Of a DNA stretch of 64,000 bases, positions 7,896 to 63,291 are shown piece after piece. The notes below the pieces were generated by a model. The model saw only the letters and a list, made by a program, of their open reading frames with translations, had not been told where the DNA came from and made no database searches. Source of the stretch: Sphaerochaeta pleomorpha str. Grapes. Lineage in GTDB: Bacteria > Spirochaetota > Spirochaetia > Sphaerochaetales > Sphaerochaetaceae. The position numbers and the translations under genes are program-made. Location of the stretch: contig NC_016633.1 of the NCBI RefSeq assembly GCF_000236685.1, positions 1,240,001 through 1,304,000 on the forward strand, given 5' to 3'. How positions within the stretch are numbered: position 1 is the stretch's first letter; each line of letters opens with the position of its first letter.

Positions 7896-9124
7896 CTCTT
7901 TTCGGTAAAACTCTCAGGCATAATAAAATCACCCTTCTGGTTATTTCTCTTTGCCTCGGTATCTGCAGCCTTTTCCATGGCCTCGAGCGTAGGATTTTCC
8001 CCACGCTTGCATTTATCCTGTTTTCGGAGATACCTTGAAACTGCCGTTTGTTTTTCTTTCTCCCGTTGATAGCTCTTTCCACTGCTCATCAGCACTGCCG
8101 CAGGCCTAAGTGTCTTGATATTCGCGCAGAGAATCTGCAGGACACTGGTAAGGGGTACCGATATGAACATCCCCGGAATCCCCCAGATGTATCCCCACAG
8201 GGAGAGGGAAACAAGGATGACGAACGGAGAAATATTCAACTGTCCACCCTGAAGCCTGGGATCGATGATATTGCCCAGGATTGTCTGGATACTAATCGTC
8301 AATATTGCGATATATACCACCTGTGACCAATCGGGAGCAAACTGGATGATTCCCATCAGTATTGTCACGGAGGTGATGATGATCGAGCCTATGGAAGGGA
8401 TAAAATTGAAGATAAAGGCAAGCACTCCCCACAACAAGGGGAAATCGAGACCTGTGACAATGGCTGTTATGAAAAACATAATCCCTGTCAAAGCACTGAG
8501 AAGACTTTTGAGCAATAGGTATTTCGATACCTGACGGGTAATCCTCTCAAACATAACGGCCATTTTCATACCTTTGTTCCGGGGTATTGCGGCGAGGAGC
8601 TTGGGGACAAAGGATCGTCGTTCCAATAGAAGAAACAAGATAAAAATGTAGACCAGCAAGGCTACTTTTGTAATGGAAAGGAATCTTCCCGATATGCTGG
8701 TAAGGCTGTTTATCGCAAGGTTGGACCAATTTACCGGCAAAGCCGAGAGGAAAGAAGTACCTTCGGGCAAGTTAAGAATCCCTGATAGCCTTGTAGAAAG
8801 CAAGCCGTCCAAAGATGTTATTTTATCGGCATAGAAGGGGACAACCTTTACAAGGGTATCGATGGTAATGACTACGAACCAACCAAGGGCGACAAATATG
8901 AACAGCAAAAGTGCCATTACAAGGGTTATTGAGAAAAACTGGGGAATATGGAGTTTATCCATTTTCCTGACTATCGGGCTGAGGATGAGAAAAGTAAAAA
9001 AGGAAAGGACCAATGGTATCGAGACATCCTTGGATGCCTTTAATATTGCAAGAACCATGATCAAAACGATTATTCCGAGGAATATCTGCATATACCGATT
9101 GGAGGTCTGGGAGGTTTCCGTCAT
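7892..9124 (-). CDS. AI-2E family permease
   Basis: The predicted 410-aa integral membrane protein belongs to the AI-2E transporter family (PF01594-type), with about seven to eight helices. The conserved C-terminal block FNFIPSIGSIIIT, then DPRLQGGQLNISPFVIL and IPGMFISVPL, is typical. Substrates of this family range from autoinducer-2 to ions, so no specific substrate is claimed. The last 60 residues form a highly charged cytoplasmic tail. I chose ATG 9124 over a longer frame because a promoter (TTGAAG-17-TATAGT) ends 6 bases before it and the longer frame would run into the divergent gene. It is translationally coupled (ATGA) to the glycosylase gene. Confidence 0.85.
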   Translation of the reverse strand: MTETSQTSNRYMQIFLGIIVLIMVLAILKASKDVSIPLVLSFFTFLILSPIVRKMDKLHIPQFFSITLVMALLLFIFVALGWFVVITIDTLVKVVPFYADKITSLDGLLSTRLSGILNLPEGTSFLSALPVNWSNLAINSLTSISGRFLSITKVALLVYIFILFLLLERRSFVPKLLAAIPRNKGMKMAVMFERITRQVSKYLLLKSLLSALTGIMFFITAIVTGLDFPLLWGVLAFIFNFIPSIGSIIITSVTILMGIIQFAPDWSQVVYIAILTISIQTILGNIIDPRLQGGQLNISPFVILVSLSLWGYIWGIPGMFISVPLTSVLQILCANIKTLRPAAVLMSSGKSYQREKEKQTAVSRYLRKQDKCKRGENPTLEAMEKAADTEAKRNNQKGDFIMPESFTEKR

Positions 9125-9179
9125 GAAACAACTATAGACTAGCTTGGAAAAAGCTTCAATATCTGCTATTACTGGATTC
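9125..9179. promoter_or_regulatory. Overlapping divergent leaderless promoters
   Basis: Minus strand: TTGAAG (9159-9154), 17-base spacer, TATAGT (9136-9131), 6 bases, ATG 9124. Plus strand: TTGGAA (9144-9149), 17-base spacer, TATTAC (9167-9172), 7 bases, ATG 9180. The two promoters interleave within 55 bp, and neither gene has a Shine-Dalgarno sequence. Confidence 0.6.
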
Positions 9180-9923
9180 ATGGATCAACGAACAAACTTA
9201 GACAGGATTCAGATTGTGCTTGTGGACACCCAGGACGGAGCCAATATCGGCTCAGTCTGTAGAGCCATGAAGACAATGGGAATCACACGCCTCGCCCTTG
9301 TCGGGGAGCGGGAATATGATGAGAACAGGGTTCGCACACTCGCCTTGCATGCAAGCGATGTATGGGAAAACAGCATACGGTATCCTTCATTGGAAGCAGC
9401 ACTCGCTTCAAGTGTTCTTTCTGTGGCCTCGACTAGACGCCGCGGGAAATTCCGCAAAAACAGTGCAGTAAGTCCTGAACAATTGGCAGACATAGCGTCA
9501 AAAACAGGGGAAGGTTTGGTTTCGATTGTATTCGGCAGAGAGTCTGACGGACTCACCGACGAGGAGGTCGCCCAGTGTGCCTTGGTGGTTACCATCCCTA
9601 CCAGCGACCAATTCCCGTCCCTGAACCTTTCCCAGGCGGTTCAGATTATTACCTATAATCTCTTTGACAAACTCAAACCCTGGCCTGTCGAAGCGGTTCC
9701 GGTTACCCAGGAACGTTGTGAGAAAGGCGCGGCAACTGCCGTGGGCTCCTTGGAGGAAATCGGGTATTTCAAACAACCCCAGGAAAAACTCTGGACGTAC
9801 CGCTTTCTTCGGGATGTATTCGAACGGGCCTCCCTCAGTGAAAGTGAAATGCAGAAGATGGAAAAGGTCTTCGTAAAAATGTGCCGTATCAGCGCACACA
9901 AGGATGTCACAAAGGATGAATGA
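9180..9923 (+). CDS. trmJ: TrmJ-like tRNA 2'-O-methyltransferase (SPOUT)
   Basis: This SPOUT-class RNA methyltransferase probably 2'-O-methylates nucleotide 32 of tRNAs using SAM. The 247-aa protein begins with IVLVDTQDGANIGSVCRAMK, the TrmH/TrmJ motif. IVFGRESDGLTDEE holds the knot Gly-Arg-Glu, and VTIPTSDQFPSLNLSQAVQI is motif 3. The C-terminal extension (about 165-247) matches the TrmJ group rather than TrmL. A TTG at 9144 would extend the frame, but that TTG is part of the -35 box, so ATG 9180 is preferred. The next gene overlaps its end by 8 bp. Confidence 0.88.
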   Translation: MDQRTNLDRIQIVLVDTQDGANIGSVCRAMKTMGITRLALVGEREYDENRVRTLALHASDVWENSIRYPSLEAALASSVLSVASTRRRGKFRKNSAVSPEQLADIASKTGEGLVSIVFGRESDGLTDEEVAQCALVVTIPTSDQFPSLNLSQAVQIITYNLFDKLKPWPVEAVPVTQERCEKGAATAVGSLEEIGYFKQPQEKLWTYRFLRDVFERASLSESEMQKMEKVFVKMCRISAHKDVTKDE

Positions 9924-51816: not shown

Positions 51817-52473
51817 TCACCCCTTGTGCAAGATACAGAGCATTCGCTGGGCATCGAGATACGGTACGGACAAAGAGACCTGGCTCACAGTCCATTTACT
51901 CTTGCATTGTTTCTCAACTTGCTCCAACTCCATTCGGAGCTGGTCTTCCTGCCCCTTATAGGCACAGATCACCCCATCGGGAGCCAGGATTGGCTCGACG
52001 GCATCAAGGATATCATACAATGGGTGGAAAGCCCTGAAAGTTACCAAATCGAAAGAACCTTTGACTTGCGAGAGGTCTTGGTCATACACACTGACCCTAT
52101 CGCTCAGGCGGCATAGGACAAGGGCATTATTGAGAAACCCCACCCTACGGCCCATACGTTCAACCAAGGTAAACCGGTAATCCCGCAATGCAATTGCCAA
52201 GGGAATGCCAGGCAACCCGGCCCCCGAGCCAAGGTCGGCGATGGTTGGGTCTTGTTTGCCTGAAAGCAAATCCAGAATTGTAGGGACAGAGGACAGGCTA
52301 TCGACAATATGCTTGGTAATCAATTCATTCCCGCTTGCACCTACAAGCTTATAGGTGGGGTTCCACAGTTCAAGCTCCTTAATGTAGGTGGAAAGCTGAG
52401 CATATTGGGTATCATCAAACTGCAGACCAAGCTGGTCGATGGAATCATGCAACAGGTTGTCATACGTTGCCAT
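51817..52473 (-). CDS. rsmG: 16S rRNA m7G527 methyltransferase
   Basis: RsmG methylates G527 of 16S rRNA with SAM. The 218-aa protein contains the SAM-binding IADLGSGAGLPGIPLAIAL, LVERMGRRVGFL and the FDLVTFRAF motif. ATG 52473 has GGGAGG about 5 bases upstream and overlaps the mnmG stop by 14 bp. It completes the widespread mnmE-mnmG-rsmG order. Confidence 0.93.
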   Translation of the reverse strand: MATYDNLLHDSIDQLGLQFDDTQYAQLSTYIKELELWNPTYKLVGASGNELITKHIVDSLSSVPTILDLLSGKQDPTIADLGSGAGLPGIPLAIALRDYRFTLVERMGRRVGFLNNALVLCRLSDRVSVYDQDLSQVKGSFDLVTFRAFHPLYDILDAVEPILAPDGVICAYKGQEDQLRMELEQVEKQCKSKWTVSQVSLSVPYLDAQRMLCILHKG

Positions 52474-54277
52474 GGCGGCCTCCCTTGCCAACATGCAGGA
52501 TAAGGATTGCAAGATCGCTGGTACGGACCCCGTTTATCCTGCTCGCCTGCCCAACGGAGCGTGGCTTTATTGTCTTGAGTTTTTCCCTGGACTCTGCGCT
52601 TAGTCCCTCAAGGGTCCCATAGTCGAGGGTATCGGGAATCAAAAGGCCTTCCAGTTTCTCGAACCGTGAAACCTGCCGGTCCTGCCGGTGGATATATCCC
52701 TCGTACTTTATATCGAGTTCAACCTGGTAACGGGTAGGTTCATCAAACGCATCCAATTCGGGAATAGAGGACCTCAGGTCATCTATTGTCACTTCAGGCA
52801 TTTTCAGGGCAGTGAGGGCGGTTTTCTGTTCATACTTATGTTTGGAAAGCAAGTCCTTCACGGCCTCAATCTTTTCCATTTTCTGTTTCAGGCGTTCCAA
52901 TTTTTCCTCGCTCTGCAAGCCGACTGAATACCCTTTTCCAGTCAAGCGCTGGTCACAGGTATCATGGCGGAGATTCAACCGGTATTCTGCCCTGCTGGTA
53001 AACATCCTATACGGTTCCTTGGTTCCCATGGTCACCAGATCGTCAATCAAAACGCCGGTATAGGCTTCATTGCGGGAAAGAACCAGCGGTTTTTCGCCCT
53101 TCAATTTCTGGGCGGCATTGATTCCGGCCATCAAACCCTGGCAGGCTGCTTCCTCATATCCGCTGGTACCGTTGGTTTGTCCTGCAACGAACAGATTCCC
53201 AACATGCTTGCTCTCCAAGGATGCATAGAGGTTCTGGGGATCGAGGTAGTCGTACTCCACTGCATAGGCAGGGCGCATAATCTGGGCATGCTCGAGGCCT
53301 GCAATGCTATGGATAAAGTCCCACTGGACATCCTCAGGCAAGGAGGAGGAGATGCCGTTGAGATACATTTCCTCGGTACCGACCCCCTCCGGTTCCACAA
53401 AGATCTGGTGCCGGTCCCTATCTGGGAACCGGACTACCTTATCCTCGATGGAAGGGCAATAGCGTGGACCTTTGCCTACGATTTTCCCTCCATACAGAGG
53501 GGAACGGTGGATATTGTCTCTAATTATCTGATGGGTTTTGTCGTTGGTCCAGGTAATATGGCAAGGAAGCATGGGGCGCTCCACGCTGTCATAATCGAAA
53601 CTGAAGGGCATCAAAACGGGATCACCGTCCTGCAGTTCCATTTTCTCAAAATCCAGCGAACTTTTACGTACCCTGGCGGGGGTACCCGTCTTCAGTCTTC
53701 CCACTGGGAATCCTTTCTCACGTAAGGCTGTCCCCAAGCCCATGGCTGCCGGCTCATCAAGACGGCCAAAGGGTGCATCGTATTCCCCGATGAAAATCCG
53801 CCCTTCCATAAATGTACCGGTAGTGAGGACCATCACCTTGCAGGAAATGACATGACCACGTGCAGTTTTGACCCCCACCAGGTTTTTCCCTTCCTTGTCC
53901 AAGACCAAATCGACAACGGTGTCCATAAATAGGGAGAGATTACTCTGGCTTTCCAACGTTTCTTTTGCGAGGCGGGCATAGGTGAATTTATCAGCCTGGG
54001 CACGGGGTGCCTGCACTGCAGGACCCCTACGACGGTTGAGAATCCTATATTGAATCATTGAATGGTCGATCAAGTGGGCCATTTCACCCCCGAGAGCATC
54101 GACTTCCCTTACTATATTTCCCTTTGAAAGCCCCCCGATTGCAGGATTGCAGGACAAACGCCCGATTGCATCCAGATTCTGGGTAATCAAAAGAGTGCTG
54201 AAACCAATTCTCGAGAGGGCCAGAGATGCCTCGATTCCGGCATGGCCCCCTCCCACTACTATTGCATCATAATCCAT
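52460..54277 (-). CDS. mnmG: tRNA uridine-5-carboxymethylaminomethyl enzyme MnmG
   Basis: MnmG, with MnmE, modifies U34 of several tRNAs to (carboxymethyl)aminomethyluridine using FAD, NADH and a folate C1 unit. The 605-aa protein has the FAD motif VVGGGHAGIEASLALSRIG, CNPAIGGLSKGNIVREVDALGG, GRLKTGTPAR, and GQTNGTSGYEEAACQGLMAG. AGGGAAGT precedes ATG 54277. The mnmE stop lies 2 bp upstream. Confidence 0.96.
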   Translation of the reverse strand: MDYDAIVVGGGHAGIEASLALSRIGFSTLLITQNLDAIGRLSCNPAIGGLSKGNIVREVDALGGEMAHLIDHSMIQYRILNRRRGPAVQAPRAQADKFTYARLAKETLESQSNLSLFMDTVVDLVLDKEGKNLVGVKTARGHVISCKVMVLTTGTFMEGRIFIGEYDAPFGRLDEPAAMGLGTALREKGFPVGRLKTGTPARVRKSSLDFEKMELQDGDPVLMPFSFDYDSVERPMLPCHITWTNDKTHQIIRDNIHRSPLYGGKIVGKGPRYCPSIEDKVVRFPDRDRHQIFVEPEGVGTEEMYLNGISSSLPEDVQWDFIHSIAGLEHAQIMRPAYAVEYDYLDPQNLYASLESKHVGNLFVAGQTNGTSGYEEAACQGLMAGINAAQKLKGEKPLVLSRNEAYTGVLIDDLVTMGTKEPYRMFTSRAEYRLNLRHDTCDQRLTGKGYSVGLQSEEKLERLKQKMEKIEAVKDLLSKHKYEQKTALTALKMPEVTIDDLRSSIPELDAFDEPTRYQVELDIKYEGYIHRQDRQVSRFEKLEGLLIPDTLDYGTLEGLSAESREKLKTIKPRSVGQASRINGVRTSDLAILILHVGKGGRHGNV

Positions 54278-54279
54278 AG

Positions 54280-55611
54280 TTACTTCCCTACGCAAAATCC
54301 GCTGAATATCTTTTGAAGGATATCCGCGGGGGTGACTTCCCCGGTAAGTTCTCCGAGACTCTGCATTGCTTCACCCAACTCCGCGGCTACAATGTCCAAC
54401 GGAATATCCAATTCAACAAGGGCTATCGCCCTTTGAACAGCTTCACTTGCCTGGAGCAACAGAACTTTCTGCCGCTCCGATTCGATTACCACCTGGTCTT
54501 CCCCTGTCGTGGGCAACCCCTGCCGCAGGCGTTTTGCAATGGCACTTGCCAATGCGGCTATTCCTTCCCCGCTCTGGGCACTGACAGAAAGACTGCCTTG
54601 CGGGGCTTTGGCCAAATCGCTCTTATTGAAAACGACAAGGGTTTTGTCATCAGAGCGATAACTCTGCTGTACCTCGGTGCTATCGACAAGATAGACAACC
54701 AAGTCGGCCTGGTCTATCAGTTGCTCGGTTCTTTTGATACCCTCTGCCTCGATAGTGTCACTGCTCTCGCGCAACCCGGCAGTGTCATAAAGCCGGACAG
54801 GGATTCCTTCAAAGGAACAATCTGCCTCGATATAATCTCGGGTAGTTCCCTTGGTCGCGCTTACTATCGACCGTTGTTGTTTAAGCAAAAGGTTGAAAAG
54901 CGAGCTTTTCCCTGCATTGGTGGCCCCTGCAAGGACAACCCTTGCCCCTTGGCCATAGAGGCGTCCGACCGAATAGGAAGAGGCAAGCCTTTCAAGGGCA
55001 ATTTCTACTTCCTGGAGCCGGGACAGAGGAAACACGAACTCATCAAGTTCATCCTCTGCATAGTCCAGCTGCACCTCGACGGCTGCCAAAACAACAAGCA
55101 AGTCTTCCTTGACTGCTGAAATCCTATCTTTAAGAGACCCTTCCAACCGTGAAAGGGCCATAGCCTGGCTCCGCGGGCTCTGGGCTGCAACCAGTTCTTG
55201 TACTGCCTCGGCCTGGGTTAAGTCCATTCTCCCATGCAAAAAAGCACGGAAGGTAAACTCGCCACCCTGGGCAGGGCGCAAACCGATACGCTTGAACAAA
55301 GCAAGCAATTTCTGAAGCCCCGGCAGCGACCCATGGCAGGTAAACTCAACAGATTCCTCCAAAGTATACCCATGCCCATGCGTATAGACAGCCGCGACAA
55401 CCTCATCGAGGTTCTCTCCATTTTGCCCATCGGTTATGAACCCATGGACCAACGTGGCATTCTTAGCCTGCAACAAAGCCTTCGGACGGGAAAAACATTC
55501 CCCCAAAGCCTTTCTGCAACCTTCACCGCTGACACGGATTACGGCCAAAGCACTCTGGGCCCAGGCTGTTGCCAATGCATATATTATATCGTCAGTATTA
55601 TAACTTTCCAT
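54280..55611 (-). CDS. mnmE: tRNA modification GTPase MnmE
   Basis: MnmE is the GTPase partner of MnmG. The 443-aa protein has the N-terminal folate-binding domain (IYALATAWAQSALAVIRVSG), a G domain with GATNAGKSSLFNLL (G1), TRDYIEADC (G2), DTAGLR (G3) and NKSD (G4), and the C-terminal FCVGK tetrad that provides the catalytic Cys. The open frame extends upstream into unrelated sequence; ATG 55611 matches the family start. It has no ribosome site, but TATACT ends 7 bases upstream. Confidence 0.96.
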   Translation of the reverse strand: MESYNTDDIIYALATAWAQSALAVIRVSGEGCRKALGECFSRPKALLQAKNATLVHGFITDGQNGENLDEVVAAVYTHGHGYTLEESVEFTCHGSLPGLQKLLALFKRIGLRPAQGGEFTFRAFLHGRMDLTQAEAVQELVAAQSPRSQAMALSRLEGSLKDRISAVKEDLLVVLAAVEVQLDYAEDELDEFVFPLSRLQEVEIALERLASSYSVGRLYGQGARVVLAGATNAGKSSLFNLLLKQQRSIVSATKGTTRDYIEADCSFEGIPVRLYDTAGLRESSDTIEAEGIKRTEQLIDQADLVVYLVDSTEVQQSYRSDDKTLVVFNKSDLAKAPQGSLSVSAQSGEGIAALASAIAKRLRQGLPTTGEDQVVIESERQKVLLLQASEAVQRAIALVELDIPLDIVAAELGEAMQSLGELTGEVTPADILQKIFSGFCVGK

Positions 55612-55678
55612 GTCGAGCAGTATACTGTAGTGGCGGCAGACCTTGCAACAAGAGCATCTCATTGGATATGATACCGCC
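55612..55678. promoter_or_regulatory. Bidirectional leaderless promoter, shared TTGCAA -35
   Basis: The self-complementary hexamer TTGCAA (55643-55648) is flanked on each side by an 18-base spacer. On the minus strand comes TATACT (55624-55619), 7 bases, then the mnmE ATG (55611). On the plus strand comes TATGAT (55667-55672), 6 bases, then the epmA ATG (55679). Neither gene has a Shine-Dalgarno sequence. Confidence 0.62.
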
Positions 55679-56683
55679 ATGGATATTTCTGCAAAAAATG
55701 CGGCTCTTCTTCGAAGCCGCCTATACAAATCGATGCGTTCCTTTTTCGACGAACGGTCGTATACCGAAGTCGATACTCCTTCGCTGTCCCCTGACCTCAT
55801 CCCAGAGCCAACGATAGAGAATTTCGGAACCCGTTTTGACAATGAATTCATAGGTTCTTTGGATATGTATCTGATTCCCTCCCCTGAGGTTTTCATGAAA
55901 AAACTGATTGCAGCCGGTTTTGGAAGCATATATCAGTTCAGCCACTGTTTCCGCAACTGCGAACAGATAGGCAAGATACACAATCCTGAGTTCTCTATGC
56001 TCGAATATTATACGGTAGGGGCGGACGAACAGGATTCCATCGAAATTACCGCAGAATTGCTTGCAAAGACCGCCTTGCCCAACTGCCCGACGCACTTGTT
56101 GCCACCCTTCAACCATTTGACTGTGGAAGAAGCCATGTGGCGCTATGCCCAGGTAGACTTGGAAAAGAACCAGAGCCAGAAAAATCTTGCCAATGAGGCA
56201 AGGCGGCTCGGTTTGCATCTCGGAACCGAACCGGAGAGCTGGGAAGACACCTTCAACAGGATTTTTTTGACTTTTGTCGAACCAAACCTGCCCCAGGATA
56301 AGCCTTTGGTGCTCGACCGATACCCAGCCCAGATTGAATGTTTGGCAAAACGTGAGGGAAATTATAGAAAACGCTGGGAAATGTATGCGGGTGGCATAGA
56401 AATTGCGAACTGTTACGATGAAGAACGAGAGGTAGCGGTGATAGAGGCATATTATCGCCAAGAGTATGCCAAACTTATCCAACAGCGAACAATCAAGCAG
56501 TCGGTCATCCCTGATACAGACCCTTCCTTTGCTACTTTGTTCACCACTTTCCCCCAGTGTTCAGGTGTTGCTTTGGGGATGGACAGGTTGCTGATGCTAC
56601 AGTTGGGAAAAACCAGCCTTGAGGGGGTGATTCTTTTTCCTATTTCTGGTATGCTTGGCAACGGTAAAAATTGTAATATTTAA
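55679..56683 (+). CDS. epmA: EF-P lysine lysyltransferase EpmA
   Basis: EpmA (PoxA/GenX/YjeA) is a truncated class II lysyl-tRNA synthetase that attaches beta-lysine to EF-P. The 334-aa length and the absence of a tRNA anticodon-binding domain set it apart from LysRS. Motif 2 reads QFSHCFRNCEQIGKIHNPEFSML, and motif 3 is SGVALGMDRLLML. YAGGIEIANCYDE is the lysine-site region. The efp gene follows after 17 bp, which strongly supports the role. The start has no ribosome site but sits 6 bases after a -10 box. Confidence 0.95.
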   Translation: MDISAKNAALLRSRLYKSMRSFFDERSYTEVDTPSLSPDLIPEPTIENFGTRFDNEFIGSLDMYLIPSPEVFMKKLIAAGFGSIYQFSHCFRNCEQIGKIHNPEFSMLEYYTVGADEQDSIEITAELLAKTALPNCPTHLLPPFNHLTVEEAMWRYAQVDLEKNQSQKNLANEARRLGLHLGTEPESWEDTFNRIFLTFVEPNLPQDKPLVLDRYPAQIECLAKREGNYRKRWEMYAGGIEIANCYDEEREVAVIEAYYRQEYAKLIQQRTIKQSVIPDTDPSFATLFTTFPQCSGVALGMDRLLMLQLGKTSLEGVILFPISGMLGNGKNCNI

Positions 56684-56700
56684 CATACGAGGTAATTAGC

Positions 56701-57264
56701 ATGATTAAAGCAGGTCAAATCGAAAAGGGAACAGCCCTTCTCATTAAAGGACAGCCCTTTGTTTGCATCGACCGTGAATTTGTAAACCCCGGTAAAGGAT
56801 CGGCCTTTGTTCGTCTGAAACTCAAGAGCCCCTCAAGTGGCCAGACCCTCAGCGAAACCATGAAGAGCCAGGACAATGCCGAGGATATCATGGTTGTGGA
56901 TCGCGATTGCCAATATCTGTTCAATGATGGCGAAAGCTTCCACTTCATGCTGACTGATACATACGACCAGATTGAAGTCCCTATGGTAAACTTCCCCGAC
57001 TATCAGTTCATCATGAAAGACGGTGAAACCTATCGCTGCACATTCTGGGAAACCCAGCTTCTCGATATCCAGGTCCCACCCAAGGTAATCTTTTTGGTAG
57101 CCGAGGCAGAGGAAGCCGTCAAAGGCGACACTGTCCAGGGAGCAACCAAATATGTGGTGACCGAGACAGGCCTCAAGGTTCGAGTTCCCATTTTCATCAA
57201 ACAGGGTGAAAAGATCAGGGTAAACACCGAAACCAAGGAATACCTGGAACGGGTCAACAGCTAG
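56701..57264 (+). CDS. efp: Elongation factor P
   Basis: EF-P relieves ribosome stalling at polyproline stretches. The 187-aa protein has the KOW-like domain I with the modifiable Lys at the tip of NPGKGSAFVR (Lys32), followed by two OB domains. Val-rich VRVPIFIKQGEKIRVNTETKEY closes it. GAGG precedes the ATG. It is cotranscribed with epmA, and a Lys rather than Arg at the tip agrees with the lysylation pathway. Confidence 0.97.
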   Translation: MIKAGQIEKGTALLIKGQPFVCIDREFVNPGKGSAFVRLKLKSPSSGQTLSETMKSQDNAEDIMVVDRDCQYLFNDGESFHFMLTDTYDQIEVPMVNFPDYQFIMKDGETYRCTFWETQLLDIQVPPKVIFLVAEAEEAVKGDTVQGATKYVVTETGLKVRVPIFIKQGEKIRVNTETKEYLERVNS

Positions 57265-62220: not shown

Positions 62221-63291
62221 ATGGAACAAGAGAAACAAGACCATACCATAAGGAGTATGGCAAAACTAGGGTCGCTTTTGACCCTCAGTGAGGATGAAAA
62301 GACTTTTCAGGAAGGGAAACAAGCCTTACCTGTTGCAATAAACCCCTATTTTTTCAACCTGATCGATCCCAAGGACCCAAAGGACCCCTTGCGCAGGCAG
62401 GTTGTACCTACCCGTTTTGAACAAATAGAAAACAGGGGCGAAGATATCGATCCGCTTGAGGAAATTGACCATAGTATCACCGAAAGACTGATACACCGGT
62501 ATGAAAACAGAGTTGCCTTTCTCGTAACCGATATCTGTCCCCTCTATTGTAGGCATTGTTTCCGTCGCCGGTTCACCGGTACGTTTAACGGTCCAGCAAC
62601 CAGAAGACAGATAGAAGAAGCCGCCGAATATATACAGCAACATCCCAAGGTCAAGGAAATCCTGTTGACAGGAGGGGATATGATGACCCTTTCTGATTCC
62701 AGGATCGATGAAATGGTTACCATATTCCGTACGGCACGTCCTGACTTGATCATTCGTCTTTGCACCCGTACCCCTGCTACCTGGCCACAGAGAATCACCG
62801 ATGACCTGATTGCTATTTTCAAGAAGCATTCGACGGCACCGTTTTATGTGATGACCCAGTTCAATCACCCCCGGGAGCTGACAGAAGAGGCAAAGATTGC
62901 CATTTCCAGGTTTGTCGATGCCGGGATTCCAGCCATGAACCAGACGGTCCTGCTCAGGGGGGTCAATGACTCGGTAGATACCCTTGAGGAACTTTGCAAC
63001 AAGCTTCTGGCTAACAGGGTGAAACCCTACTACCTCTTCCAAGGAGACTTGGTCTCAGGAACAGCCCATTTCAGGGTTCCTCTCATACGTGGCATGGAAA
63101 TCGAAGAAGAATTGCACCGGCGGCTTTCGGGGCTGGCAATGCCCTCGTATACGGTCGACCTACCCGAAGGAGGGGGAAAAGTCCCCTTGGCAAAATGCTA
63201 CATCGAAGGAAATGACGGACAAGGTACCTGGAAAATAAGAACGCCCGAGGGAGGGGTCAGGTATTACCAAGACCCTCCATCAGGCGACTGA
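62221..63291 (+). CDS. Lysine 2,3-aminomutase family protein (KamA/EpmB-like)
   Basis: This is a radical SAM, PLP-dependent aminomutase of 356 aa that should turn L-lysine into beta-lysine. The cluster motif is CPLYCRHCFRRRFTG. The PLP Lys lies in EGGGKVPLA, and substrate-binding Asp residues are in LLRGVND and YTVDLPEGGG, as in clostridial KamA. It is shorter than KamA (about 415 aa) and close to EpmB in length, but has the KamA-type second Asp. No lysine-fermentation genes are adjacent, and epmA-efp lie 5.5 kb away. Start uncertain: ATG 62221 or 62257, neither with an ideal ribosome site. Confidence 0.88.
   Translation: MEQEKQDHTIRSMAKLGSLLTLSEDEKTFQEGKQALPVAINPYFFNLIDPKDPKDPLRRQVVPTRFEQIENRGEDIDPLEEIDHSITERLIHRYENRVAFLVTDICPLYCRHCFRRRFTGTFNGPATRRQIEEAAEYIQQHPKVKEILLTGGDMMTLSDSRIDEMVTIFRTARPDLIIRLCTRTPATWPQRITDDLIAIFKKHSTAPFYVMTQFNHPRELTEEAKIAISRFVDAGIPAMNQTVLLRGVNDSVDTLEELCNKLLANRVKPYYLFQGDLVSGTAHFRVPLIRGMEIEEELHRRLSGLAMPSYTVDLPEGGGKVPLAKCYIEGNDGQGTWKIRTPEGGVRYYQDPPSGD

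Follow-up and report, generated by a model that had tools for sequence, protein, structure and literature searches.

Can a single −35 element serve two divergent promoters whose transcripts begin at their start codons, and would such sharing set two operons against each other? The question is raised by a short intergenic region of Sphaerochaeta pleomorpha str. Grapes. The window, meaning the whole stretch of 64,000 nucleotides that was analysed, comes from a complete genome (3.59 Mb) in the GTDB genus containing Sphaerochaeta. Read directly from the sequence, the start codons of mnmE (minus strand, ATG at 55611) and an epmA-like gene (plus strand, ATG at 55679) are separated by 67 bp. The plus strand from 55609 to 55681 reads CAT-GTCGAGC-AGTATA, 18 bp, TTGCAA, 18 bp, and TATGAT-ACCGCC-ATG. 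The central hexamer TTGCAA (55643–55648) is palindromic and has no strand of its own; it is read here as the putative −35 of both divergent promoters. No other hexamer begins with TTG on both strands.

The mnmE promoter consists of this hexamer, an 18-bp spacer and the −10 element TATACT (55619–55624, minus strand), which ends 7 nt before the ATG. On the other side, an 18-bp spacer leads to the epmA −10 element TATGAT (55667–55672, plus strand), which ends 6 nt before the ATG; 42 bp separate the two −10 elements. The stretches between −10 and ATG, GCTCGAC for mnmE (55612–55618, minus strand) and ACCGCC for epmA (55673–55678, plus strand), are without a Shine-Dalgarno (SD) sequence. On rereading of the sequence, the original prediction proved exact to the base in its coordinates, letters, 18/18 spacers, distances of 6–7 nt to the ATGs and lack of an SD sequence. 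The promoter matches are modest, with 4/6 at the −35 and 5/6 at the −10. A terminator-like hairpin with a T run is present at 55700–55720 (minus strand), antisense inside the 5' end of the epmA-like gene. It immediately precedes the mnmE promoter and might protect it against antisense transcription; the hairpin sequence is apparently not conserved in the nearest relative.

The genes on either side belong to two operons. mnmE (54280–55611, minus strand; TIGR00450, 348 bits) is the first gene of mnmE-mnmG-rsmG. It is followed 2 nt downstream by mnmG (52460–54277, minus strand; TIGR00136, 822 bits), the end of which is overlapped by rsmG (51817–52512, minus strand; TIGR00138). All three score over their NCBIfam cut-offs, as does efp, encoding elongation factor P (56701–57264, plus strand; TIGR00038), which is located 17 nt downstream of epmA. 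The gene at 55679–56683 (plus strand) matches the family of EF-P lysine ligases, paralogues of LysRS. It is called epmA-like because the EpmA/GenX model TIGR00462 is its best-scoring family and it adjoins efp, yet its 245.9 bits are below the curated cut-off of 286.9. The epmA-like gene adjoins efp in nearly all loci of the genus, and the divergent order of mnmE and epmA-efp is kept across the genus. Translation of epmA from an upstream TTG (55643) was discounted, as an in-frame stop is found inside the epmA −10 in three relatives (L003–L005). About 5 kb from efp, the window also contains a radical-SAM lysine-2,3-aminomutase-like gene (62233–63180, plus strand), which reaches 241 bits against the EpmB model TIGR03821 and is thus below cut-off; two more lysine-2,3-aminomutase-like genes elsewhere in the genome have similar TIGR03821 scores.

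In one genome, the arrangement is close to what chance supplies. A promoter scan gave the mnmE and epmA sites 9/12 matches each, a score near chance, with 7 sites found versus 4.7 ± 2.3 in shuffles. The 12-letter joint pattern ANNNTA-18-TTGCAA-18-TANNNT has exactly one match in the 3.59-Mb genome, namely the mnmE/epmA site, and about 0.4 sites are expected per 3.59 Mb by base composition. Taken by itself, this lone match is weak evidence against chance. Judged by its conservation in the aligned loci, the geometry is far more than chance.

TTGCAA is invariant in all 24 loci of the genus that have both genes; these loci are related by descent and do not amount to 24 independent tests. The epmA spacer is 18 bp throughout, the mnmE spacer is 18 bp or, in four loci, 17 bp, and both −10 boxes are present and end 6–7 nt before the ATG in 24/24 (for epmA, TA..AT is conserved). 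The epmA −10 at spacing 18 was located by script in 23 loci and by eye in L004 (TAAGAT), where the script register is wrong. The check in close relatives proposed with the original prediction therefore came out in its favour, since the hexamer, both −10 boxes, both spacers and the distances to the ATGs are kept at every genus locus. Among alignment columns, 15 of the 18 in the motif are invariant, versus 3 of the 49 other intergenic ones (Fisher P = 1.6e-9), and identity outside the motif is 27–61% between seven lineages. The three invariant columns outside the motif all flank TTGCAA, giving CTTGCAACA (55642–55650, plus strand), the sole conserved block between the two −10 elements. These conserved flanks are non-palindromic, and a symmetric −35 does not account for them. 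No further conserved element was found between the −10 boxes in the alignment of the genus loci. A 25th genome (G025) has an identical 54-bp core; no epmA match was found in the 26th (G011), which is 81% complete.

The presence of TTGCAA at 17–18 bp from both −10 elements of divergent genes in all 24 loci supports the shared palindromic −35 originally proposed. The fixity of the hexamer, the fixed spacing on both sides and the lack of another conserved candidate argue for double use, and the shared −35 is the best reading of a region with no other conserved element between its −10 boxes. The hexamer is thus presumably used as −35 by both promoters.

The second part of the proposal concerns the transcripts. 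When a −10 hexamer occupies −12 to −7, the six following bases place +1 on the A of the ATG. Since TATGAT ends 6 nt before the epmA ATG, the A of this ATG is the expected +1. Genome statistics were obtained from 844 kb of the same genome (the window and 39 stretches, the stretches being a 22% sample), with genes called by a simple codon model that has imprecise starts and misplaces that of epmA. In this sample, the frequency of hexamers that match TATAAT in at least five of six positions is highest at 6 and 7 nt before candidate ATGs lacking an SD sequence (1.8% and 2.7%, respectively). Internal ATGs have such a hexamer at these distances in about 0.35% of cases, and SD-led ATGs in the 844 kb never have one at 6–7 nt. 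Counted per gene, 27 of 327 first genes have the hexamer 6–7 nt before an SD-less ATG, versus 3–17 at control distances. Leaderless genes are therefore a real but minority class in this genome, perhaps 5–10% of first genes as estimated from the excess, a fraction small enough to leave room for error at single loci. The estimate is in line with a survey in which leaderless 'TA-led' genes were detected in 6 of 18 Spirochaetes genomes, averaging 3.9% of genes (PMC3160421, Zheng et al. 2011). As proposed for mnmE and epmA, TA-led genes have a −10-like hexamer placed so that transcription begins at the start codon; shared promoters are not treated in that survey, and the words 'divergent' and 'Sphaerochaeta' are absent from its text. 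A literature search lying outside most subscription journals found no paper containing both 'Sphaerochaeta' and 'leaderless'.

Among 81 divergent pairs in the 844-kb sample, mnmE/epmA is the best dual-leaderless candidate. No SD sequence is found on either side in 22 of the 24 genus loci. The other two, L024 and L027, have an AAGG, but it precedes the mnmE −10 and would not be part of the predicted mRNA. L021 is a species in which a leadered start is possible as well: its −10 contains an in-frame ATG, with a purine-rich GGGGAGG upstream. The −10 boxes 6–7 nt before SD-less ATGs, conserved in the genus, bear out the predicted pair of leaderless promoters as far as sequence can, and both transcripts would start at their ATGs. 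Elsewhere in the window, at 9122–9182, one more divergent gene pair is separated by very little DNA (about 55 bp), and its minus-strand gene has TATAGT six nt before the ATG.

Taken together, it is likely that the 67-bp region is a compact bidirectional promoter with a shared TTGCAA −35 and two leaderless mRNAs. In the proposed mechanism, a sigma-70-type RNA polymerase would dock on the palindromic TTGCAA in either orientation. It would melt the −10 on one side, at a distance of about 18 bp, and that −10 would decide the direction. RNA synthesis would then begin on the A of the ATG or no more than one base from it, yielding leaderless mnmE-mnmG-rsmG and epmA-efp mRNAs. With leaderless mRNAs, start sites, start codons and both promoters can fit in 47–68 bp.

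The original prediction described a single instance. Within the genus the architecture is recurrent, and in the family it appears as one register in a series of overlapping promoters. This comparison covers 67 loci from other genera, with promoter elements chosen automatically, so single loci can be wrong. In these loci, mnmE and epmA mostly keep −10 elements 6–8 nt from the ATG; it is the relation of the two −35 boxes that differs. A shared −35 is found outside the genus in g38, in one g4 species and in eight g39 species. In four species, the −35 boxes are offset by 3 (TTGTTGCAA). In the interdigitated +17 register, each −35 abuts the −10 of the other promoter and the ATGs are 47–52 bp apart. 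Full interdigitation of this kind, with only 47–50 bp between the ATGs, is seen in L074–L077, L156, L164, L168, L170, L171, L173–L175 and L180. The remaining loci have separate boxes or boxes that overlap in some other register; the offsets in the family comprise 0, +3, +11/12, +17, −11, −17 and −57. Mapped on a protein tree of 91 rows, sharing takes seven changes, versus 27 in shuffles; the shared state is thus clade-bound and either arose or was lost several times.

The original prediction further held that the two operons would be expressed in mutual competition. With starts 67 bp apart and a common −35, simultaneous occupancy by two polymerases is physically implausible, and because of this geometry binding at the mnmE/epmA region may well be mutually exclusive. 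Such exclusion becomes measurable as competition only when occupancy is high. The modest promoter matches suggest weak coupling unless growth conditions raise occupancy, and any link that exclusion creates between the operons at basal strength is probably light. It seems slightly on the probable side that the two transcription units are independent in practice, owing to low occupancy, and that sharing reflects compaction and not regulation. Such independence would be a rival to competition and is compatible with a shared −35. It is favoured by work on E. coli bidirectional promoters (PMC12825309), which compete little at basal activity: knockdown of one direction hardly altered the other. Clear competition, with an effect on noise, required strengthening of one direction. 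The drift of the −35 register in the family points the same way: the leaderless promoters stay, suggesting that no single register is required for function. However, the shared state is kept without exception across a deeply diverged genus and recurs in other clades. Selection for coupling of the two operons could be the reason.

The double use of the hexamer faces a rival of its own, in which TTGCAA is the −35 of one promoter only (e.g., that of epmA) and the other is driven by its −10 alone. Some promoters work without a −35, and each −10 here is a good TANNNT match. Nevertheless, this explanation is improbable: six bases are fixed, at a spacing of 17–18 bp to both −10 elements, in 24 loci in which the intervening DNA is nearly saturated, and neither side has a conserved TGN extended −10. 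Moreover, an epmA −35 that is not shared does vary at its fourth base, as seen in the g39 clade of another genus, where the −35 boxes are separate and the epmA-only −35 is TTGCAA in 7 cases and TTGAAA in 6. More unlikely still is that TTGCAA is an operator for a transcription factor controlling both genes, its distance to the −10 boxes being incidental: although the conserved block of 9 bp (CTTGCAACA) is longer than a −35 hexamer and CTTGCAAG is present at some other sites, the enrichment depends on the 17–18 bp spacing to the −10 elements and the block at mnmE/epmA is non-palindromic.

Two further candidates were rejected. A CTTGCAAG regulon shows no enrichment, its 49 occurrences in 844 kb being about the chance expectation from 727 TTGCAA sites. 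A shared symmetric mnmE −10 is suggested by this genome, where the element is symmetric (AGTATACT), but relatives do not keep the plus-strand reading (AGTATACC and AGTATACA).

The preferred reading, a −35 shared by two leaderless promoters, has known neighbours: bidirectional promoters that share a −10 have been described, and so have overlapping divergent promoters for which polymerase is the switch. In the promoters studied by Warman, Grainger and colleagues (PMC12825309), one element is likewise read in two orientations and its symmetry gives divergent mRNAs; binding is mutually exclusive and functionally linked pairs are common. These promoters, however, share a −10, have a separate −35 on each side, and commonly start 10, 18 or 23 bp apart. 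At mnmE/epmA the shared element would be the −35, with starts about 67 bp apart and both mRNAs predicted to be leaderless; a shared symmetric −10 with starts about 10–23 bp apart is not found there. The Pc/Pr pair of plasmid pLS20 also consists of divergent promoters on the same DNA, for which polymerase itself, unable to bind both, was proposed as a switch (PMC4207663). In contrast to mnmE/epmA, the −10 of one promoter coincides with the −35 of the other, one promoter is much stronger than the other, and the outcome is set by a regulator together with DNA looping. The pLS20 layout is closer to the +17 register of other Sphaerochaetaceae (L074–L077). A search that lay outside most subscription journals turned up no published case of a conserved palindromic −35 shared by two promoters whose transcripts are both leaderless. 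A conserved shared −35 predicts a further class of divergent starts about 64–68 bp apart, for which 5'-end maps already existing for other bacteria are searchable. As the same gene pair occurs in different registers (shared, +3, +12, +17, −11, −17 and −57), a comparison across them could measure how polymerase exclusion affects two translation-quality operons.

The geometry is also found at other loci of the genus. The pattern ANNNTA-17-TTGCAA-18-TANNNT has 60 matches in 26 genus genomes, versus 12 and 13 at the wrong spacings 27/28 or 12/13; matches in different genomes are often orthologues of each other and not independent events. With equal spacers, 18/18 or 17/17, the pattern becomes palindromic and is found at 25 sites in either case, about 6 being expected from the wrong-spacing controls; mnmE/epmA itself makes up 21 of the 25 18/18 sites. 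A reversed pattern was discarded as control, as AACGTT is five times rarer than TTGCAA, and wrong spacings were used instead. These matches, together with the register series, lead to a wider proposal that we rate as slightly short of probable. TTGCAA-centred bidirectional promoters would form a recurrent Sphaerochaeta class with several conserved loci and often leaderless transcripts, and the mnmE/epmA promoters would slide through discrete registers family-wide, polymerase exclusion being gained, kept or lost. If true, this would provide a natural series for exclusion between a tRNA-modification operon and an EF-P operon.

Three such loci illustrate the range of arrangements. In 15 genomes, TTGCAA with a −10 on each side is located between a B12-binding radical-SAM gene and the gene just upstream of a topA-like gene, named by eye from its N-terminus (L194–L198, e.g. 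L194:1446–1498). There, the −10 boxes are 5–7 nt from both ATGs. A match in 14 genomes (L199:1537–1589) places TTGCAA between queH and a gene for a TPR protein. The gene queH encodes epoxyqueuosine reductase, an enzyme of tRNA modification, and has TATCGT 6 nt from its ATG, a leaderless form; the TPR-protein gene opposite has a leader with an SD sequence. In the genome of the window itself, a 17/17 TTGCAA is found between FMN-reductase-like and RidA-family genes (L129:15868–15919). The former has a −10 six nt before its ATG and is leaderless in form, and the latter is leadered.
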